Shown piece after piece: positions 2,466 to 27,589 of a stretch of 27,589 bases of DNA. This DNA is from a virus. The position numbers were made by a program, and so were the translations under genes. The stretch covers positions 1-27,589 of IMG/VR virus record IMGVR_UViG_3300047374_000133; one strand, 5' to 3'. Below the pieces are notes generated by a model, which was given only the letters and a program-made list of their open reading frames with translations, ran no database searches and had not been told where the DNA came from. Position 1 is the stretch's first letter. Each line of letters opens with the position of its first letter.

Positions 2466-2744
2466 ATGAGTAAAAAATTAGATGAAAAAAATTCAAATCT
2501 TTCTCCGGAAGAATTAAAGAAACGTAGAGAAGAGATCACAAAATTTTACAAAGATAATTTACCACATCTTAAAATTCAGGCAGAGTATGAAGAGCTTTTA
2601 GCTAGTATTGAAAAATCTAGAGCTGAAAGATTACAAGCACAAACATTTATGGCGCAGGCTTTTGCTGAAACTCCAGAAGGTCAAGAACCTAATGAAGAAG
2701 CTAAAGCATTTATGGAGGCTGTTAAAAACTTTAAAGAAGATTAA
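2466..2744 (+). CDS. Small charged helical protein (92 aa)
   Basis: Begins MSKKLDEKNSNLSPEELKKR and continues as Glu/Lys/Ala-rich helix, with Gln/Ala/Met around residues 58-70 (QTFMAQAFAETPEGQEP). No catalytic or membrane segment is visible. The length and heptad-like charge suggest a coiled coil. It is the first gene after the 2428 promoter candidate and ends 1 nt before the amidase start. Its role is unknown. Confidence 0.75.
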   Translation: MSKKLDEKNSNLSPEELKKRREEITKFYKDNLPHLKIQAEYEELLASIEKSRAERLQAQTFMAQAFAETPEGQEPNEEAKAFMEAVKNFKED

Positions 2745-2745
2745 G

Positions 2746-3636
2746 ATGGATCTTACTAAACAAAATATTAAGATTTTACAAAAAGTTGTTGGTGCTAAAC
2801 CAGATGGTTTGTATGGGCCTAATACTATTGCTAAAGTAAAAGAGTTTCAGAAAAAAAATAACTTAGTTATAACAGGTAATCCAAGTGAACAAACTTGGCA
2901 GTTTATATTAGATTTAGAATCTGAATTAGACAGTGATACTTCTAAACAATATTTTATAACAGAGTATAATCAACTAATCCATAAACATTATTTACCTGAA
3001 GGGGAATATATAAATGGGCCTATAAAGAATGAATATGTTTTTATTCATCATACAGCTGGTAGGAATAATCCATATAAGTGTATTGATCATTGGGCTAAAG
3101 ATTCCAGAGGTAGAATAGCCACTGAATTTGTATTAGGAGGTAGATCACATAACAAGTTTGATATAAACGAATATGATGGTGTTATGGTTCAAGCATTTCC
3201 TGATGGCGGTCAAGGATGGCATCTTGGTAAAACAGGATCCAGACACATGAATAGACATTCAGTTGGTTTAGAGTTATGTTCAACTGGTTATTTAGATAAA
3301 AATAACAAAACATATTTTGGAAGTTTAGTTAATGATTCTGAAATATATACATTAGATAAACCTTTTAGAGGATATTTAAAGTGGCATAATTACTCAGATA
3401 AACAGATAGAAGAAACTGAGAAGTGGTTAAAGTATATTGCTGATAGAGACAATATTGATATTAGAGAAGGATTGCAAAAATGGATTAAGAAGTATGGTGC
3501 TAATAAAGCATTTGATTTTCATGAAGATGCATATTTAGGAAAAGTAAAAGGTTTACTTACTCATACTAATGTAAGAAAAGATAAAACAGATTGTTATCCT
3601 CATGACAAGTTAGTTGAAATGATATTAAGATTATAA
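2746..3636 (+). CDS. Endolysin: PG-binding domain plus N-acetylmuramoyl-L-alanine amidase (Amidase_2 type)
   Basis: The start ATG 2746 (MDLTKQNIKILQKVVGAKPD) follows the previous stop by one base; the frame extends upstream to 2608 but would overlap that gene. The protein has 296 aa. Residues 5-55 match a peptidoglycan-binding repeat (LQKVVGAKPDGLYGPNTI ... FQKKNNL). Residues about 95-285 form a type-2 amidase: FIHHTAG with zinc-ligand candidate H101/H102, a GWHLG site near H159, HSVGLEL at 171-177, and THTNVRKDKTDCYP with H273 and C283. H...H...C ligation resembles T7 lysozyme. It would cut the amide bond between MurNAc and L-Ala at lysis. No signal peptide or membrane anchor is visible, so a holin elsewhere is presumably needed. 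Confidence 0.92.
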   Translation: MDLTKQNIKILQKVVGAKPDGLYGPNTIAKVKEFQKKNNLVITGNPSEQTWQFILDLESELDSDTSKQYFITEYNQLIHKHYLPEGEYINGPIKNEYVFIHHTAGRNNPYKCIDHWAKDSRGRIATEFVLGGRSHNKFDINEYDGVMVQAFPDGGQGWHLGKTGSRHMNRHSVGLELCSTGYLDKNNKTYFGSLVNDSEIYTLDKPFRGYLKWHNYSDKQIEETEKWLKYIADRDNIDIREGLQKWIKKYGANKAFDFHEDAYLGKVKGLLTHTNVRKDKTDCYPHDKLVEMILRL

Positions 3637-13031: not shown

Positions 13032-14651
13032 ATGGCAACTCCAGTATTAAACAATGGGATTTTCCTAAGAGACACTAGCTATAGTGCAAGTTCTCACGTT
13101 GATTCTTATCACTTAACTCAGATGCTTGGTTCAGCAGAACCAATGGATATGGGACCAGTAGATTTATGGGCAATGACACAAAAAGTTGAAATGCCTCTTT
13201 ATCAAATGGCTTCATTTGGTGGAAAGAACACAATTTTAGTAGACAATGCACGTGGTGAGTACAAATGGCAAACCCCTATCGCACAAGATCTTCCATACAT
13301 TGTGGCAGACATGGATCCAGGAAATACTTCAAAAGGTATTGATGGGACAACATTTAAAATTAAAATTTCTAAGAGAACATTTGGACATGGTGATATTATC
13401 ACTTATGACAAGTACAATGGTGTAGAACTTTACATTACAGCTGAGGATATTATTCCAGCAGGTGATGGATATGTTTACACAGTTCAATTAGTAAACAACA
13501 ACAACACAGCAACTCTAGACAATGCTTACTTAGCTTCTGGAACTAAATTCTTTAGAAAAGGTTCTGCACGTGGTGAGTATGGTGAAAGATTTTCTGACAT
13601 TGAAACAGGATCTGGATTCCGTGAATTCTACAACTTTGTAGGAGGAGCTGAAGCACATGTACATTATTCTATTTCTAGCCGTGCTGATCTTATGATCAAA
13701 GGTGGTTTGAATGCAGATGGTACAGTTCCTGTAACTGAGATTTGGAGAAACTTTGACAACAATTCTAATAATCCATCAGTAGCTTCTATTGAAGGATTGG
13801 TTGCTAGCATGGGTAAATCAGGAGCAAGAGAAGCATTTGAAAATGGTACTCTTACTAAAACTTTCATTACTAATATGGAAGCTGCTCACCTTTCTAAAAT
13901 TGCTACTGACATTGAAACTTACCTAATGTGGGGTAAGGGAGGTAGAATTAAACAAGATGGTCCAGATGACGTTAGATTATCTGTAGGACTTTGGTCTCAG
14001 TTAGATAACTCTTTCAAGAGAGTATATAACAAATCTTCTTTCACTCTTGATATGTTCAAATCTGAACTTTACAATTTCTATCAAGGAAAAGTTGAATTTA
14101 AAGGTCCAGATCCACAAAGATCACTTGTTGTACAAACTGGTATCGGTGGTATGCAATTAATCAACAAAGCTATTGCTGATGAAGTATATGGTTCTGGATT
14201 AGTTCAAAATGCTTCTGACATTGGTGCAGTAACAGGACAAGGTATGGATCTTGATTTTGGTTTTGCTTACACAAGCTTTACTATTCCTTTCCTTGCTAAC
14301 GTTAAGTTTGTTCTTAACCCTGCATTTGATAATCTAAACACTAATGACATAGAGAATCCATTAATTGATGGTCGTCCTCTAAGTTCTTATAGCTTTATTA
14401 TCTTTGATGTTACAGATGAAGGAAACGACAACATTCACTTGTTGAAACTTTCTTGGGATAATCAACTTAAGTGGTTCTACCAAAATGGTACTATGGACTA
14501 CATGGGAAGAACTCAAGGATTCCAATCAACTGGTAACTTTAATGGTTACAGAGTTATGATGTCGCAGACTATGCCTGCAATTTGGGTTAAAGATCCAACT
14601 AAAGTTCTTAAAATTGTAATGAGAAACCCAGTAACTGGAGGATCATTCTAA
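13032..14651 (+). CDS. Major capsid protein, HK97-fold type (539 aa)
   Basis: Follows the scaffold gene and precedes a strong terminator. Begins MATPVLNNGIFLRDTSYSAS, with an N-arm-like opening, then KNTILVDNARGEYKWQTP and RADLMIKGG near 220, IATDIETYLMWGKGGRI near 300, and a C-terminal beta-rich segment ending MRNPVTGGSF. The balanced helix and beta composition, size (about 490-550 aa in crAss-like phages) and position fit a HK97-fold shell protein. It contains no Cys. Codon use is biased to TTC, AAC, TAC and ATC compared with its neighbours, which agrees with high expression. No N-terminal delta domain is obvious; a separate scaffold is present instead. Confidence 0.9.
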   Translation: MATPVLNNGIFLRDTSYSASSHVDSYHLTQMLGSAEPMDMGPVDLWAMTQKVEMPLYQMASFGGKNTILVDNARGEYKWQTPIAQDLPYIVADMDPGNTSKGIDGTTFKIKISKRTFGHGDIITYDKYNGVELYITAEDIIPAGDGYVYTVQLVNNNNTATLDNAYLASGTKFFRKGSARGEYGERFSDIETGSGFREFYNFVGGAEAHVHYSISSRADLMIKGGLNADGTVPVTEIWRNFDNNSNNPSVASIEGLVASMGKSGAREAFENGTLTKTFITNMEAAHLSKIATDIETYLMWGKGGRIKQDGPDDVRLSVGLWSQLDNSFKRVYNKSSFTLDMFKSELYNFYQGKVEFKGPDPQRSLVVQTGIGGMQLINKAIADEVYGSGLVQNASDIGAVTGQGMDLDFGFAYTSFTIPFLANVKFVLNPAFDNLNTNDIENPLIDGRPLSSYSFIIFDVTDEGNDNIHLLKLSWDNQLKWFYQNGTMDYMGRTQGFQSTGNFNGYRVMMSQTMPAIWVKDPTKVLKIVMRNPVTGGSF

Positions 14652-16798: not shown

Positions 16799-17275
16799 AT
16801 GGATTATTCAAGAAATTTAAAAAAGAAAGGAAAAACATTAAGTAGATCATCTTCTGTTAAAGAATCAATGATGGAAAGATCAACAGATATGAAAATGGTA
16901 GATGCAATGACTGCAAGTTTAGTTGTTGAAGTTATGAATGCTGCTACAAGTTTTCACAAGTTACATTTGCAAGTTACAGGTGATGGTTCATATGCACAAC
17001 ATAAAGCATTGAATGAAATTTATGATAAGCTTCCTGATTTAGCAGATGAGATTGCAGAAGGATATCAAGGTGCTTGTGAGTTAATTTTAAATTATCCTGA
17101 GAAAGCTCCTGTTACATTATCCGGTATAGATGGTGCTATTGAATATTTAAGAATGATGAAAGTTCAAATAGATGAATTACAAGCTGTTATGCCACATTCT
17201 GAGATAGTAAATAATTTAGATATCATTAAAGATGCTGTTAATTCAGCAAAATATAAATTAATCTTTCTTTCTTAA
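16799..17275 (+). CDS. Dps/ferritin-like four-helix protein (158 aa)
   Basis: After a basic Ser-rich N-terminal arm (MDYSRNLKKKGKTLSRSSSV), the helices contain FHKLHLQVTGDGSYAQHKAL and LADEIAEGYQG. H56, H68, N72, D83 and E87 have the spacing 12-4-11-4 of the Dps ferroxidase ligands His-His-Asp-Asp-Glu (E. coli Dps H51, H63, D67, D78, E82), with Asn in the third place. The 158-aa length also fits Dps. I recall a phage family of this pattern (DUF5856), not verified. It could bind DNA by its basic arm or oxidise iron, or simply use the fold structurally. It lies within the head-tail operon, 2 nt after the adaptor gene. Confidence 0.7.
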   Translation: MDYSRNLKKKGKTLSRSSSVKESMMERSTDMKMVDAMTASLVVEVMNAATSFHKLHLQVTGDGSYAQHKALNEIYDKLPDLADEIAEGYQGACELILNYPEKAPVTLSGIDGAIEYLRMMKVQIDELQAVMPHSEIVNNLDIIKDAVNSAKYKLIFLS

Positions 17276-19419: not shown

Positions 19420-19920
19420 ATGGATAAAGCACTAAAAAAAAATATAGATATTCAACAAAAATTTGCTAATGCAATAAATGGAGTATATCGTGAGCAAAAA
19501 CTTGGGATTACTCAATGTTGTTTTAGTAATTTAGTTAATGTAACAATAGATAAATATTTATGTGATTGGAAAAATAGTGCTACTAATAAAACTGTTATTT
19601 ATAGTAATATACCAGGAGTTTTTATTGAACCACTTGTATCGGTTAATGAAGAAGCAAGTTTATCATGTCCAGAAACACCAACAAATGTTTGTACTATTAT
19701 CGATTTAGAACTATTATTAAAATCTGAAGGTACATTTATATTTACTCAAGCAACTCCATTAATAGTTTGGACAATTACACATAATTTAGGCAAATTTCCA
19801 TCTGTTACAGTTGTGGATAATAATAATCAAGTTGTTGTTGGAGATATAAATTATATTAATACAAATGTATTATCAATAACTTTTGACGAACCTTTTGCAG
19901 GGTTTGCATATTTAAATTAA
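19420..19920 (+). CDS. Fibre-associated protein with HNLG module (166 aa)
   Basis: Begins MDKALKKNIDIQQKFANAIN. The N-terminal half is Cys-containing (TQCCFSN). The C-terminal 60 residues (WTITHNLGKFPSVTVVDNNN ... FAGFAYLN) match a recurrent fibre module with the HNLG-x-x-P-S-V-x-V-x-D core, which I know from phage tail-fibre tips and hubs. A related ending occurs in the next gene. It lies 4 nt before the 543-aa fibre gene. I infer a small tail fibre, chaperone or adaptor for fibres. Confidence 0.65.
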   Translation: MDKALKKNIDIQQKFANAINGVYREQKLGITQCCFSNLVNVTIDKYLCDWKNSATNKTVIYSNIPGVFIEPLVSVNEEASLSCPETPTNVCTIIDLELLLKSEGTFIFTQATPLIVWTITHNLGKFPSVTVVDNNNQVVVGDINYINTNVLSITFDEPFAGFAYLN

Positions 19921-19924
19921 GACT

Positions 19925-21556
19925 ATGGCAATAAGATATATAAATGACTTAAACTTATCTAACAGTAAATTACAAAATGCTGTTATAGATCCCCTTTCTA
20001 GTGCACCATCAGGTGCTTTAGAAGGGCAAATTTACTATGATACAAATACTGACAAACTGCAGTTGTATACAGGTTCTGGATGGGTACCTATTCAATCAGG
20101 AAATGAACTTAATACTACTTATACATTTAATGTTCCTACATCAACTACAACTTTAAGACTAAGCGGAAGTGATGCAACAACTAACGATGTAGCAATTACT
20201 GGATCTGGTACAACAACGGTAACAAGAACAAGTGCGACAGAGCTAACAATAAGTTCTGCAGATCAGTATACAGGTACTGTAACAAGTATAACACCTGCTG
20301 CAGATAATGGATCAGGTTCTGCAATTACAGCAAGTGGTACAATATCAATATTAGGAGGAACTAATATAACTACAAGTATAACAGGTACAACAGTAACAAT
20401 TAATTCTACAGATCAATTTGTTGGAACAGTTACAAACATTGCAACTGGAGCAGGATTAATAGGAGGACCAATTACTACTACTGGTACAATATCACCTAAT
20501 TATTCCGGTTCTTCAAATATTATATTATCATCTGGTGCATTAGTGACTCCTGTAGGTGGTGATACATTAATGGTTAGTTCTGCATCAACAGGTAATGTTC
20601 ATAATGCATTAATTAATACTTTATCTTTAAGCAGTCTTGCATCTCCAATAGCTGATTTATCAGTTAATAATTATAAAATTATTAATTTAGTTGATCCAAC
20701 TGCAACTCAAGATGCAGCTACAAAAAATTATGTAGATACAACATTTGCAGGTTCAGGTGCTTTAATTTATCAAGGTGGATATAATGCTTCAACAAATAGT
20801 CCTGATTTAACAACAAGCCCGAATAGTATAAAGAAAGGATGGACTTATACAGTAACTGTAGATGGTACATTTTTTACTGAACAAGTTAGAGTTGGTGATG
20901 TATTAATTGCAAATTCAGATAATCCATCTGCATTATCTGATTGGACTACAGTTCAAAATAATATTGATTTAGCATCTACAACAACAGTTGGTATTGCTTC
21001 ATTTAGTTCGGATAATTTTGCAGTTAGTGCAGCAGGTGAAGTAACTATTAAAAATGGCGGTGTTGAGTTAGGTGTTGAAACTACAGGTTCTTATAACCCT
21101 ACTGTTGGTACTGATACAGATATAGATGTAGGTAATAATACAACAAGTGGTATTGATATAATTAATACAATCTCATTAACAGATGGTGTAATTACTTCAT
21201 TTACAACTGAAACAGCACAAAGTGCTAGTGAAACAAATCCTGGTGTAATTTTAATTGCAAGTAATGCAGAAGCAACAGCCGGATCAAATACAACTAAAGC
21301 TGTAAATCCATTTCAGTTAATTAGTAATATAAATTCTGGTCATACATCTAGAGGATATGCAACTACTATAACTGCTAGTGGAATAGTTACACATAATCTT
21401 AATACATTTGATGTTATGGTTCAATTATATGATACAGTTATTAATGATACTGTGTATGCAGAAGTTGTAAGAACAGGTAATAATACAATAAATGTTATAT
21501 TTGGAGCAACTCCAGCAAATTCCATAAGAGTATTAGTAACTTCTGTAGGAATATAA
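19925..21556 (+). CDS. Tail fibre protein (543 aa)
   Basis: Begins MAIRYINDLNLSNSKLQNAV, followed by GQIYYDTNTDKLQLYTGSGW, a common fibre opening. A Thr/Ser/Gly-rich repetitive beta region (residues 60-250), then LVDPTATQDAATKNYVDTTF and an IYQGGYNASTNSPDL module (about 255-400), and NPGVILIASNAEATAGS follow, all known fibre motifs. The last 70 residues carry a HNL beta module related to the 19420 product. It is Cys-free. It probably forms a trimeric shaft with a C-terminal tip for host contact. Confidence 0.85.
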   Translation: MAIRYINDLNLSNSKLQNAVIDPLSSAPSGALEGQIYYDTNTDKLQLYTGSGWVPIQSGNELNTTYTFNVPTSTTTLRLSGSDATTNDVAITGSGTTTVTRTSATELTISSADQYTGTVTSITPAADNGSGSAITASGTISILGGTNITTSITGTTVTINSTDQFVGTVTNIATGAGLIGGPITTTGTISPNYSGSSNIILSSGALVTPVGGDTLMVSSASTGNVHNALINTLSLSSLASPIADLSVNNYKIINLVDPTATQDAATKNYVDTTFAGSGALIYQGGYNASTNSPDLTTSPNSIKKGWTYTVTVDGTFFTEQVRVGDVLIANSDNPSALSDWTTVQNNIDLASTTTVGIASFSSDNFAVSAAGEVTIKNGGVELGVETTGSYNPTVGTDTDIDVGNNTTSGIDIINTISLTDGVITSFTTETAQSASETNPGVILIASNAEATAGSNTTKAVNPFQLISNINSGHTSRGYATTITASGIVTHNLNTFDVMVQLYDTVINDTVYAEVVRTGNNTINVIFGATPANSIRVLVTSVGI

Positions 21557-21568
21557 TAAAAAAAATAA

Positions 21569-24500
21569 ATGGCAATTAGATTTTTTAATGATCAAGATGT
21601 ATTTGGTAATGCTACTATTGAAGGTATACTACAAGTAGGACCTGTAGGTGATGGTTTAAAAGTAGATAACTCTAGCAATGATTATAATGTTGGTATTGGG
21701 ACTGCTAGTCCTAGTGCTAAAATACATGTTGCAGGTAAAGCAATAATACAAACTTCTGGAACTGCTACTGCTCATTCGGATACAGATTTATTAATTGCTA
21801 ATTCAACAGCTGCAAGTTCAACATCTCAAATTCAGATACTTTCAGGTGTAAGTGGATCATCTAATTTATATTTTTCTGATACTGCAGCATATAGTGTTGG
21901 TGGAATACAATATGATCATACTAATAATAAAATGACTCTTAGAGTTGCTGCAGGAAGTAAAATGACTATTCTTTCTTCCGGCAACGTAGGAATAGGAACG
22001 TCTAGTCCTAGTCAAAAGCTTCACATATTTAACGCTGGTTACCCGCAAATGGCTTTAGAGTCTAACGGTGGTACTTGGCAAGTAGGTGTTAGTACAGGTA
22101 ATGATTTAGCATTTAGAAGAGGTACATCAGGCTCTAACTACCCATTATGGCTTGATAGCTCAGATAACGTAGGTGTAGGAACAACTAGTCCTAGTCAAAA
22201 GCTTGATGTAGCTGGTAACATAAAAAGTAATGGTGAATTTCAAATATTTACAGGAACTACGGACATTGGACAAATATCTAACTCATCAGGTGCTTTAAAT
22301 ATACAGGGTACATCTACAAGAGATGTAAGCTTAGGTTCAGATACAAATCCTCAATCTATTTTTATAGAAGGAACAAATGGTAACGTAGGTATTGGCACGA
22401 CTAGTCCAAGTGAGAAGTTGGAAGTCGCTGGAGCAGTTGGTAACTTTAAAACAACAGGTCATCAAATATTTCTTACAAGAAATGGTAATAATGAAATATA
22501 CGCAGTCGGCGCATCTTCAGTATTAGCTTTAGGTCAAAATGGATCTGAAAAAATGCGTATACATTCTAACGGTAACGTAGGTATTGGTACGATTAATCCT
22601 CCTTATAAATTAACAGTAGCTGGGGACACTTATGTATTTAATGCTAATCTCCATTTAAATAGTGGTTATGGTATTGTAAACGCTGGTAATACAAGCCATA
22701 AAATAGGATTTCCATCCCTTGGAAATTTTGCCTTTGAAAATGTCAACGTAGGTATAGGTACTACTAGTCCTGACAATATATTGCATATAGTAAAAGACCA
22801 AGGTGGTGTTTCAAGTGCTTTAAAATTAGAAAATAAAGCCGGAGCTGATGATACTGGATTTGATATTGATTTTAAATTAGCATCTTCTGGTTTATCAGCT
22901 AAAATAGGAGCAATAAGAACTAATAGTCCGGGAGCGGGAGACACTGATATGTTCTTTTCAACATCAACTAATGGTGTAACTACTACGGAGGCAATGCGTA
23001 TTGATTCTGCCGGCAATGTAGGTATAGGCACAACTAATCCTGGCTATAAACTTGAAATATCTGACGATACAGATACCACCGTAAATTTATTAAGACTTAG
23101 AAACGCCGACAGTTTATACTCTCAAACATGGGACTTCCAACTAGATACAGGTAAACATTTAGTAGTTACTGGAGCTAGTGGTTCTGGAGGTATTGTATTA
23201 AAACCTGGTTCAGCGGGGCTGAATGTCACCTCAACATCAGCAGCTCAAATATTTTTAAATTCTGCTACAGGTAATGACTCTGTATTGAATTTCCGCGAAA
23301 ATTCGTCTCAAAAAGGCAAAATAGGTTACGACACGTCTTTATCCGGCATAGCATTAGTTGCTGGAAGCGGAGCATTCTCATCTGCAGATATGGTGGTGCT
23401 TGATAGTGGCAACGTAGGAATAGGAACAACTAGTCCTGGAGTTAAATTAGATGTCACTGGTCAAATAAGAGCATCAAGTGGACTAGAGATATCAGGAGGC
23501 AATATAAACCTTGTAGACAATAGTAGAATAAGACTTGGTTCGTCAGTTGACTTTCAAATATATCACGACGGTTCTAATAGTTATATTGCTGATACAGGTA
23601 CAGGTACTTTGAATATTTCTTCTAACCAAATAAACCTAAATGCAAGTAACGGTGAAAACGGAATACAAATAAATGAAAACGCAGATGTAAAAATAAGATA
23701 CGATAATAGTGTTAAACTTCAAACCACAAGCACAGGCGTTAGTGTAACAGGAACTGCAACTGCAACCACTTTTTCAGGTGATTTAAACGGCACAATAAAT
23801 ACAGCAACTACAGCTGTAACAAAAGCAAACGCAACAAACGACACTACAGTAGCTACTACAGCATTTGTACAAAACTTGATAGGTACAATACCTGCAGGTT
23901 TAGTATTTCAAGGAACGTGGGATGCAGCTACAAATACACCAACACTTACAAGTGGATCAGGCACAACAGGTCATTTTTATATAGTATCAACGGATGGTTC
24001 TACTAATTTAGATGGTATAACTGATTGGAAAGTTGGTGACTGGGCTGTATTTGTAGAGCAAGGGGCTACAGACGCTTGGGAAAAAGTAGATAACTCTTCT
24101 GTATTAGACGGGTCTGGTACAGGTCAAAAAGTAGCATTATGGTCAGGTTCAGGTACATCTAATACTTTAACGGATGCACCTATAACAGTCAGTGGTAATA
24201 ACGTAGGTATTGGTACTACAAGTCCTACATCGCCTTTACACGTAGTAAACACAGTAGGAGGATGGAGTGCTTATATAAATAATGACGTTGGTACAGGCAC
24301 GCAATCAGGATTATTATTAGATGCCGGTTCAAGTTCATCAGACTTTGCTATGTATGTTAGAAATGCAGCAGGGTCAAGTGATTTATTTTCAATAAAGGGC
24401 AACGGTAACGTAGGTATCGGAACTACTAATCCTGGGGCTAAGTTAGATGTTAAGGTATCTTCAGCAAACCTAACAAACGTTATAAAATTCGGAGACGCAA

Positions 24501-27500
24501 CACCCGGGTATTTAGCTTCTGGCACTAATGGTGTCTACCTTAGTGACAGTAGTGGTAATGCAAGGATTATGTTTGAACATACTGGTAACGTAGGTATAGG
24601 TACTACTAGTCCAAGTGAAAAGCTTCATGTAGACGGTAATGCTATTGTATCTGGAATTGGAATAGGAACTTCGACTCTATATTCTAACTCAATAAACATA
24701 ACAAACTCCGGTACGCTGCGTATTGGTAACACAGAATTCCTGTCTAAATCAAGTAATGACTTATCTATATATCAACAAAAAATAAACGTAACATCAGCCG
24801 GCAACGTAGGAGTTGGTACTACTAGTCCTGCAGAAAAGCTAACAGTTTCAGGTGATGCTAATATTACAGGTAAGCTAGCGGTAGGTTCTTCTGCGGCTCA
24901 CCCATCATTCGCTTTTTACAACCAGCTAAATGCTTATTTTAACGGAGCTGTTACAATAGACGATACGTTAACCCAGTCAGGTGGTGGAACCTCAAGCTTC
25001 TCAGGCAACGTTGGTATAGGAACGACTAGTCCTGCTAATAAACTAACAGTAAGAACAAGTACAATTAATGACGGATTATATTTAGAAACTTCTCAACCTG
25101 TTACGTATGGAAAAATATACAATAGTAATTCAGAGTCTTTTCCTGTAGGAAATCTAAACTTAGCATACGGCACTAATAGTACCGCTATAATCCAAGCATT
25201 AAGTAATAGAATGTCTTTAAAAGGAGGCTACACTACTGGAGGTCAAATATCTTTCTTATCTGCTTCTACAGAGATAATGAGAATGACATCTACTGGTTTA
25301 GGTATTGGTACTACAAGTCCCTCTCAAACTTTATCTGTAGAAGGTAATATTGAGCTCGGAACTGGCGGGTACATATATGGAGACACTACAACACCTTACC
25401 TTAGATTAAATAATGCAGCAGGCGCGTTTTTAGGATACAGTACTTCTTATGTTACAGTTGGCGGTCCAACAACTGTAGTCGACGCCGGGACATATGTAGC
25501 AAGATTTAGAAGCAATAAAGTAATATTTACTCAACCTTTATTTGTAGGTACATCTAATATTAATGACACGCCTACTGCTGAACTTCAAGTTAAAGGAGCT
25601 GGAACAACATCTGCAACAACAGCTCTATTAGTACAAAACTCTGCAACAACTGAATTATTTAGAGTTAGGGACGATGGTAGCGTGTATGGAATAGGCGCTG
25701 GAGGTGTAGACACAAACGCTGCCTATGGTAAAGATGCTTTAATAAGCAACACTACAGGTTCAAATAATGTTGCAGTAGGTGCAGCATCATTATATACTAA
25801 TACTATAGGTGCTAATAATACATCGGTAGGAAGACTTGCTATATTTAGTAATTCTACAGGTTCTAATAATACATCGATTGGAATGCAATCCTTGTATAAT
25901 AACACTACAGCGAATAATAATTCAGCATTAGGTTTTCAAGCGTTATATAGTAATCAAACAGGTGGTAATAACGTAGCTATAGGATATGCTGCATTGTTTA
26001 CAAATGTAACGGGTAATAATAATATAGCAATAGGTGTAGAAGCGTTAATAAACTCTACAGCAGCTAATAATACAGCTATAGGATATCAAGCATTGTTAAG
26101 TAATACTACAGGTACATCTAACGTTGCACTTGGATTACAATCATTAAAAATTAATACAACAGGAAGTAATAATGTTGCGTTAGGTTATCAATCTTTACAT
26201 ATTAACTTAGCATCTAATAATACAGCTGTAGGTCATCAAACATTATTAGACAATACAACAGGAGCTAATTTAGTTGCTTTAGGTTATAGGGCATTATATA
26301 ATAATACTACAGGTTCAAACAATACTGCATTAGGTCATCTGTCATTGTTTGATAACACTACAGGTTCAAGTAATGTAGCAATTGGAACGTCAACATTAGA
26401 AAACAACACAGCATCTAGAAATACAGCAGTAGGATATGCTGCAATGTTTGCTAACATTACAGGTACCTTTAATGTAGCTCTAGGTTATCACGCATTAAGA
26501 GATAACACAGCATCTAACAACACAGCAGTTGGTAATGAAGCATTAAAAGATAATACTACAGGTGCACAAAATGTAGGGTTAGGTTCTTATGCTTTAGCAA
26601 ATAATACTACAGCAGGATTTAACACAGCAGTTGGTGTAAGTGCAATGTTTATTAACACTACAGGTGCAGGAAATGTAGCTTTAGGTTATCAATCGTTATA
26701 TTCAAATACTACCTCAAATGATAATACCGCGATAGGTTCACTTGCATTGCGTAATAATACAATAGGAGCAAATAATACAGCAGTAGGTAGACAATCATTA
26801 AATTTAAATACTACAGGTAATTTTAACACCGCATTAGGTCGTACATCATTATATGTAAATACTACAGGTTCTTATAATACTGCAGTTGGTAATGATTCCT
26901 TAAGAAACAACACAGCATCAAATCTTACAGCAGTAGGTTTTGAAGCATTAAAAAGTAATACAACAGGTTATGCAAACGTAGCTTTAGGAGATAGAGCATT
27001 ACGAGATAATACAACAGGTTTTGCTAATATTGCAGTAGGTCAATTAACTTTAGTATCCAATACAGGTTCTAATAATACTGCTGTAGGTAATAATGCAATG
27101 CTTACAAATACATCAGGAGCAAGTAACGTAGCGTTAGGTGTTGAATCATTAAGACAAAATACAACAGGTAATAGTAACATAGCTGTCGGTAGACGAGCAT
27201 TAAGAAACAACACAGCAAATAATAATGTTGCTATTGGTTTCCAAGCAGCGTTTAGTAACACTACAGGTACAAGTAACGTAGCAGTAGGTCACGAAGCATT
27301 ATATAATAACACAGTATCTAATAATACAGCACTAGGTTATCAAGCAGGATATGAAACAGGAAATTTAACCGGCACTAGTAATACTTTTTTAGGATATAAT
27401 GCATCTTACGGAACAGCTACCACGATTACAAACTCTACAGCGGTAGGAGCAAACGTTACATTGACTAATTCAAACACAGTTATATTAGGTAATAATGCAA

Positions 27501-27589
27501 ACGTAGGTATAGGGACGACTAGTCCAAGTAAAAAATTGCACGTTGCTGGTTCTTTCAAGGTTACTAGCGAAAGTGTTTTTGAAGGATAT
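21569..27589 (+). CDS. Giant repetitive tail fibre, 3' end beyond window (at least 2007 aa)
   Basis: Starts 12 nt after the previous stop at MAIRFFNDQDV and has no stop to the right edge, so it is incomplete. Residues 40-1390 carry 14 of the 15 NVGIGTTSP-type repeats separated by variable 50-100-residue modules; residues about 630-875 contain a cyanophage-like IYHDGSNSYI segment and a FQGTWDAATNTPTL module. Residues 1394-1929 are about 32 units of a 16/17-residue NTTGSNNVALGYQSL repeat, a YadA-like beta roll. A final NVGIGTTSP at about 1978 probably precedes a C-terminal (possibly peptidase S74) chaperone past the edge. It is Cys-free and would be a trimeric adhesin for receptor binding. Confidence 0.9.
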   Translation, partial: MAIRFFNDQDVFGNATIEGILQVGPVGDGLKVDNSSNDYNVGIGTASPSAKIHVAGKAIIQTSGTATAHSDTDLLIANSTAASSTSQIQILSGVSGSSNLYFSDTAAYSVGGIQYDHTNNKMTLRVAAGSKMTILSSGNVGIGTSSPSQKLHIFNAGYPQMALESNGGTWQVGVSTGNDLAFRRGTSGSNYPLWLDSSDNVGVGTTSPSQKLDVAGNIKSNGEFQIFTGTTDIGQISNSSGALNIQGTSTRDVSLGSDTNPQSIFIEGTNGNVGIGTTSPSEKLEVAGAVGNFKTTGHQIFLTRNGNNEIYAVGASSVLALGQNGSEKMRIHSNGNVGIGTINPPYKLTVAGDTYVFNANLHLNSGYGIVNAGNTSHKIGFPSLGNFAFENVNVGIGTTSPDNILHIVKDQGGVSSALKLENKAGADDTGFDIDFKLASSGLSAKIGAIRTNSPGAGDTDMFFSTSTNGVTTTEAMRIDSAGNVGIGTTNPGYKLEISDDTDTTVNLLRLRNADSLYSQTWDFQLDTGKHLVVTGASGSGGIVLKPGSAGLNVTSTSAAQIFLNSATGNDSVLNFRENSSQKGKIGYDTSLSGIALVAGSGAFSSADMVVLDSGNVGIGTTSPGVKLDVTGQIRASSGLEISGGNINLVDNSRIRLGSSVDFQIYHDGSNSYIADTGTGTLNISSNQINLNASNGENGIQINENADVKIRYDNSVKLQTTSTGVSVTGTATATTFSGDLNGTINTATTAVTKANATNDTTVATTAFVQNLIGTIPAGLVFQGTWDAATNTPTLTSGSGTTGHFYIVSTDGSTNLDGITDWKVGDWAVFVEQGATDAWEKVDNSSVLDGSGTGQKVALWSGSGTSNTLTDAPITVSGNNVGIGTTSPTSPLHVVNTVGGWSAYINNDVGTGTQSGLLLDAGSSSSDFAMYVRNAAGSSDLFSIKGNGNVGIGTTNPGAKLDVKVSSANLTNVIKFGDATPGYLASGTNGVYLSDSSGNARIMFEHTGNVGIGTTSPSEKLHVDGNAIVSGIGIGTSTLYSNSINITNSGTLRIGNTEFLSKSSNDLSIYQQKINVTSAGNVGVGTTSPAEKLTVSGDANITGKLAVGSSAAHPSFAFYNQLNAYFNGAVTIDDTLTQSGGGTSSFSGNVGIGTTSPANKLTVRTSTINDGLYLETSQPVTYGKIYNSNSESFPVGNLNLAYGTNSTAIIQALSNRMSLKGGYTTGGQISFLSASTEIMRMTSTGLGIGTTSPSQTLSVEGNIELGTGGYIYGDTTTPYLRLNNAAGAFLGYSTSYVTVGGPTTVVDAGTYVARFRSNKVIFTQPLFVGTSNINDTPTAELQVKGAGTTSATTALLVQNSATTELFRVRDDGSVYGIGAGGVDTNAAYGKDALISNTTGSNNVAVGAASLYTNTIGANNTSVGRLAIFSNSTGSNNTSIGMQSLYNNTTANNNSALGFQALYSNQTGGNNVAIGYAALFTNVTGNNNIAIGVEALINSTAANNTAIGYQALLSNTTGTSNVALGLQSLKINTTGSNNVALGYQSLHINLASNNTAVGHQTLLDNTTGANLVALGYRALYNNTTGSNNTALGHLSLFDNTTGSSNVAIGTSTLENNTASRNTAVGYAAMFANITGTFNVALGYHALRDNTASNNTAVGNEALKDNTTGAQNVGLGSYALANNTTAGFNTAVGVSAMFINTTGAGNVALGYQSLYSNTTSNDNTAIGSLALRNNTIGANNTAVGRQSLNLNTTGNFNTALGRTSLYVNTTGSYNTAVGNDSLRNNTASNLTAVGFEALKSNTTGYANVALGDRALRDNTTGFANIAVGQLTLVSNTGSNNTAVGNNAMLTNTSGASNVALGVESLRQNTTGNSNIAVGRRALRNNTANNNVAIGFQAAFSNTTGTSNVAVGHEALYNNTVSNNTALGYQAGYETGNLTGTSNTFLGYNASYGTATTITNSTAVGANVTLTNSNTVILGNNANVGIGTTSPSKKLHVAGSFKVTSESVFEGY
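21686..27550 (+). repeat. Dispersed AACGTAGGTATAGGTAC-ACTAGTCC repeats (15 copies)
   Basis: Copies of the NVGIGTTSP-encoding element begin at 21686, 21983, 22166, 22382, 22574, 22745, 23015, 23411, 24200, 24407, 24587, 24803, 25007, about 25298 and 27500. Most have AACGTAGG and ACTAGTCC, more conserved than the protein alone needs. The span given encloses the whole set. Confidence 0.8.
25748..27355 (+). repeat. Tandem 48/51-nt repeat array in the fibre gene
   Basis: About 32 in-frame units. The 51-nt units encode NTTGxxNVALGYxxLxx and seven or eight 48-nt units encode NTASNNTAVGxxxLxx. The units are divergent at DNA level but keep the N-T-T-G and A-x-G anchors. There are no indels that break the frame. 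Confidence 0.9.

Follow-up and report, generated by a model that had tools for sequence, protein, structure and literature searches.

Among the described fibres that resemble the one analysed here are the mosaic adhesive trimers (MATs) of Bdellovibrio, for example Bd2133. MAT fibres are trimers of β-helix domains with capping loops (PMC10769870). The family has members with and without an S74 domain, and their tips are exchanged on a shared shaft (PMC10769870). The shuffling of fibre domains in general is already known, with recent domain exchange in the tail fibres of distant phages described for receptor-binding proteins in PMC10684548. For known modular fibres, it is usually left open how recombination can keep the frame and leave the protein intact.

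Phage identity and gene neighbourhood

The window, that is, the whole stretch of DNA analysed here, is a virus record of 27,589 bases. The phage is placed with the crAss-like phages because of its major capsid protein, for which the tblastn matches include Leptolyngbya phage Lbo-JY46 (29%), Cellulophaga phage phi17:2 (25%), and csAssE-Sib (23%), as well as Cellulophaga phage phi4:1. The large terminase, portal, and major capsid protein are of the crAss-like type according to their PHROG matches, and these related genes stand in the order known from Crassvirales. Lbo-JY46 has similarly sized genes in the same order, with an annotated tail fibre gene downstream in the corresponding region. In the relatives, the gene that follows the homologue of the 543-residue protein is often large, variable, and fibre-like; several such genes end in Peptidase_S74, others do not.

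A different gene order is found in the phage group of L181, L182, and L183, in which the two upstream genes (166 and 543 residues; 19420–21556 in the window) and the fibre stay together, with the fibre preceding a terminase-like gene; the L182 copy of that gene matches the window terminase only weakly (19% over part of the protein). Elsewhere in the window, the protein encoded at 16799–17275, within the structural cluster, matches DUF5856 (Pfam) and PHROG 858, labelled starvation-inducible transcriptional regulator, and 2608–3636 encodes a probable endolysin or amidase (PHROGs 1493 and 1794).

Architecture of the fibre gene

The open reading frame reported in the earlier note, 2007 codons from position 21569 with no stop before the window edge, was recovered unchanged; the virus record ends at the same point, and neither an in-frame stop nor a frameshift, named there as grounds for doubt, was seen in it. 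The gene has strong profile matches to PHROGs 23837, 6002, 4636, 9942, and 18345 (lowest E 4e-99), labelled virion structural, tail spike, or tail fibre. A frame open over 6 kb with matches to annotated structural families is far beyond chance, and it is probably the tail-fibre gene of a crAss-like phage. The coordinates of its parts are given in Table 1.

Table 1. Features of the fibre gene and of two other genes of the window.
Feature	Position	Strand	Comment
Major capsid protein	13032..14651	+	PHROG 11589; tblastn matches to crAss-like phages
Gene directly upstream of fibre gene (543 aa)	19925..21556	+	precedes fibre gene in relatives too
Giant tail-fibre gene (probable)	21569..27589	+	2007 codons, ATG start, 3' end outside record
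N-terminal part ahead of seam 1 (aa 1-39)	21569..21685	+	common to sister contig L085
Seam 1 (NVGIGTASP)	21686..21712	+	breakpoint, window vs sister L085
Seam 2	21983..22009	+	
Seam 3	22166..22192	+	
Seam 4	22382..22408	+	left edge of module with 96% DNA identity to L098
Seam 5	22574..22600	+	right edge of 96% L098 module; left edge of another L098 module
Seam 6	22745..22771	+	
Seam 7	23015..23041	+	
Seam 8	23411..23437	+	left edge of 0.8-kb block common to L088 and L089
Central domain, widely shared (aa 722-873, ...VFQGTWDAATNTPTL...)	23732..24187	+	97% identity to L094, aa 722-892
Seam 9	24200..24226	+	
Seam 10	24407..24433	+	
Seam 11	24587..24613	+	
Seam 12	24803..24829	+	
Seam 13	25007..25033	+	left edge of module 95% identical to L089
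Seam 14	25295..25321	+	left edge of block leading into array, 88% identical to L089
Array of 16-17-residue units, predicted β-solenoid	25679..27490	+	~aa 1371-1974
Seam 15, after array	27500..27526	+	DNA similarity switches here from L089 to L098

Two repeat systems are joined in this polypeptide and followed by one more NVGIGTTSP unit, as had been described from the sequence before. The first is a mosaic of modules divided by the motif xVGIGTxxP, here called the seam, which occurs 15 times in frame, 14 times within residues 40–1243 and once at residue 1978, after the array. The second is the array itself, at least 31 consecutive short units, counted with a relaxed pattern at a spacing of 13–20 residues; its presence agrees with the earlier description, and its length is slightly greater than the 536 residues given there.

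For residues 872–1136 of the mosaic, phmmer finds the Bdellovibrio fibre tip Bd2133, the structure of which is solved (8OND; E 1.3e-10); the seams of the two proteins coincide in the alignment, which suggests that the seam corresponds to a capping loop. The start of the fibre, MAIRFFNDQDVFG, has no evident hydrophobic leader, judged by eye. The array was modelled with AlphaFold2 as a continuous β-solenoid (mean pLDDT 77) in which every 17 residues form about three short strands; the model of residues 1–520, in the mosaic part, had a pLDDT of 36 and was not used. A Foldseek search of the array model found nothing below E 0.001 in the PDB, and in BFVD it found an FhaB-like adhesin of Bodo saltans virus (query-normalised TM 0.83, 41% identity). 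With VIA-align, the array resembled lyases, tailspikes, and an upper-tail protein (Z at most 18.9), which we ascribe to nothing more than a common solenoid shape. The VIA-align matches listed are other solenoids and do not include YadA, which excludes nothing; no Pfam YadA head profile was found in the fibre at E 0.01.

The combination of both repeat systems is not unique, because more than ten other viral contigs carry seams and an array in one frame. L089 contains a complete gene of 1756 residues, which runs from the mosaic through the array and four further seams to a tip that ends in ...YLSEPDEWLVVNIGGVDYVIPAYL and lacks S74. In L092 and L094 the order of mosaic, array, and further seams is the same as in the window and L089, so that the order of parts, for which no described phage protein was known to the earlier note, has counterparts in three related genes. 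Other arrangements of seams and array are present in L227 (2501 residues), L290 (2546 residues), L251 (3867 residues), L122, L124, L119, and L206; several of these, including the first three, have an S74-like C terminus by pattern.

A Pfam search of the 2007 codons returned no S74 match and no family at all, the 3' end of the gene being beyond the record. In the genes that occupy this position in relatives, S74 is present in L174 and L178 and absent in L089 and L098. Since the last two are the most alike to the window near its edge, our guess, made with a modest leaning, is that the window fibre also has a tip of the non-S74 kind. L098 was considered as a continuation of the record and rejected, as it shares the last module but is another phage; none of the viral contigs compared continues the window past its edge. 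A short C-terminal tip, ...YLSEPDEWLxVNIxGxDYVIPAY, is common to L089, L092, L094, L098, and L088, and the tip of L089 gave weak matches only among phage records (EPS depolymerase of Erwinia phage Hena1, E 0.09). In L313, a contig from a Bacteroidetes genome bin, neighbouring genes carry the same kind of array with S74-like C termini, and these genes have hydrophobic starts resembling signal peptides.

Module order in the window and its relatives

The sister contig L085 is 95.0% identical to the window in DNA over 2976 bases and 95.4% identical over 15,420 bases, about 18.4 kb together. This identity ends at position 21712, the last codon of seam 1, beyond which the alignment falls apart. In L098, modules of the window recur in a permuted order, with cuts at the seams: residues 270–341 (96% DNA identity), 1006–1088 (91%), 946–1018 (95%), 1975–2007 (97%), 1078–1155 (75%), 878–953 (96%), and 329–407 (81%). 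The order is also changed in L089, where the block corresponding to residues 1145–1253 precedes 614–886, which leads directly into 1244–1417. As a counterexample, L092 differs from L089 by a block that has no seam at its end. The seams are an architectural feature, as which they had been noted before, but their main property, that of apparent sites of module swapping, had been missed.

Most of these loci are metagenome contigs, and the seams are repeats at which misjoins would be expected, so metagenome assemblers might have fused modules of different phages at a short repeated seam. Assembler word lengths in common use exceed 26 nt, however, and the longest exact DNA repeat within the fibre gene is 26 nt, short for such words; for the same reason, collapse of the repeats by an assembler with longer words is unlikely. 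L089 and L094, which come from different metagenome records, agree at 99.96% identity over 7.5 kb with their own module order included. Misassembly also cannot produce the codon likeness of the seams described below, and the isolated S-TIM phages include a segment that is shifted and has a seam at or close to each end. An assembly artefact is, in our estimate, highly improbable. The isolate phages with seams back the swapping of modules at seams only in part, as S-TIM54/61/66/5 differ from each other at a few places, some of them at seams and others elsewhere.

Distribution of the breakpoints

Breakpoints were scored in 143 non-redundant genes with at least three seams, using aligned segments of at least 120 bases and at least 85% identity, the inner ends of which were counted as lying in a seam with a tolerance of 9 bases. 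The relatives are a non-random sample because they were collected by their likeness to the window; they are mostly metagenome assemblies, as are all of the strongest pairs. In 55 gene pairs, 79 of 128 breakpoints are in seams, compared to 15.1 expected from seam coverage, and the largest of 20,000 random draws gave 31. With the window left out, 62 of 107 breakpoints are in seams (12.3 expected). Since alignments may extend into a conserved seam, the count was repeated against a more generous null with a 30-base seam catchment, which raised the expectation to 29.2 and the largest draw to 48, still below the 79 observed. When each gene was used once, with one end per pair, about 23 independent pairs were left, with 13.2 breakpoints in seams against 5.2 expected. 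The cut-offs, the seam pattern, and the catchment width were chosen during the analysis; three settings of identity and length gave the same outcome each, and two catchment widths were used.

Such gathering of breakpoints could also arise if recombination took place anywhere and only joins at module boundaries, which keep the fold, survived, leaving the seam a purely structural role and none in DNA. The alignment of the seam with that of a solved relative agrees with this explanation: because the β-helix domains of that relative are bounded by capping loops, joins away from the seams would often misfold. The presence of some surviving breakpoints outside seams (approximately 38% of the total) is likewise consistent with it. 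What this explanation does not predict is a likeness of the seams at synonymous sites.

Codon-level likeness of the seams

Codon choice in 671 seams differs from that in the rest of the same genes. AAC was observed 459 times (229 expected), AGT 425 times (156 expected), and GGT 453 times (309 expected), and GGA at the first glycine was used 63 times where 223 were expected. Gene by gene, the sign test has AAC up in 81 genes and down in 22, and AGT up in 81 and down in 17. The departure from own-gene usage reaches its maximum at the seam codons themselves (Z 7 to 44) and has dropped sharply at a distance of a few codons; a leucine near the seam, conserved in 604 of the 671, shows a codon departure of Z 6.5. 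The isolate Synechococcus phage S-CRES1, which carries 12 seams, has its own version of the motif, AACGTTGGTATCGGTACGAGT, which is likewise very uniform (Z 10). A second peak in codon choice is located six codons before the seam, most often at an arginine (Z 17).

When the seams of one gene were compared with each other, 115 of 126 genes showed a greater likeness than expected from codon usage; at the neighbouring conserved K-L-x-V positions, which served as a control, 48 of 125 did. Survival of boundary joins alone would not yield likeness at synonymous sites in the seams without likeness at the adjacent K-L-x-V, and we regard that explanation as rather unlikely. Codon choice at domain boundaries can influence folding, so the uniform codons might instead have been selected for how fast the module boundaries are translated or how their mRNA folds, with no part played by recombination. 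Yet AAC, GGT, and AGT are favoured in the genes of many phages relative to the usage of each gene, and the breakpoints coincide with the seams, both of which argue against such selection as the cause and make it improbable.

A model of seam-based exchange and comparison with known systems

The reading we favour, and consider likely, is that the fibre is a mosaic and that recombination at the seams, which are conserved at the DNA level, exchanges its modules. In this model, the product of the gene is a long crAss-like phage fibre, probably trimeric, built as a chain of small β-helical modules, each of which would open with the NVGIGTTSP capping loop; the array would serve as a stiff β-solenoid spacer, with the tip encoded beyond the record. 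The seam would have two roles. As protein, it may act as a fixed joint that allows any module to follow another, and as DNA, it would be a stretch of about 27 bases in which the copies stay alike. Homologous recombination at the seams, within the gene or with other phages, could then swap, reorder, add, or remove whole modules in frame. The broader proposal, that NVGIGTTSP is a DNA-level shuffling seam of about 27 bases, its likeness preserved within and between phages so as to let homologous recombination cut fibre modules and reorder them in frame, in the manner of exon shuffling for the host-recognition proteins of many unrelated phages, seems to us evenly balanced between true and false.

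If the model is correct, a joint that is at once a structural boundary and conserved DNA would provide a simple mechanism for in-frame recombination of fibres, and the rate of recombination could be measured by synonymous recoding of the seams. It would also help to explain why crAss-like phages, cyanophages, and predatory bacteria share this motif in their fibres. Seam shuffling suggests a recombination-based way of rebuilding fibres for host recognition, which would be its benefit to the phage. No published account of the NVGIGTTSP or VGIGTT seam, or of seam-based shuffling of fibres, was found in the open-access papers searched.

Comparison with the MAT fibres reveals a likeness in sequence over the region that matches Bd2133, where the seams are aligned, although MATs are located on the surface of bacteria and have, besides a signal peptide, a conserved N-terminal domain of 130 residues, whereas the window gene is a phage structural gene that carries an array and has modules permuted between phages. 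Gp37 of Roseobacter phage CRP-1 and gp55 of Methylophilales phage Venkman contain NNTAxG arrays 40–44% identical to that of the window, but there the array leads to an S74 end (the match in CRP-1 is just under the Pfam cut-off), with no seam mosaic in the same protein. The exchange reported in PMC10684548 is a survey at the level of domains, and the part considered here mentions neither a recurring seam motif nor small modules permuted in one gene. Likeness is also seen to the genes of L089, L092, and L094, which share the order of parts with the window and are 88–91% identical to it in the DNA flanking the array, but differ in having a shorter array and other modules.
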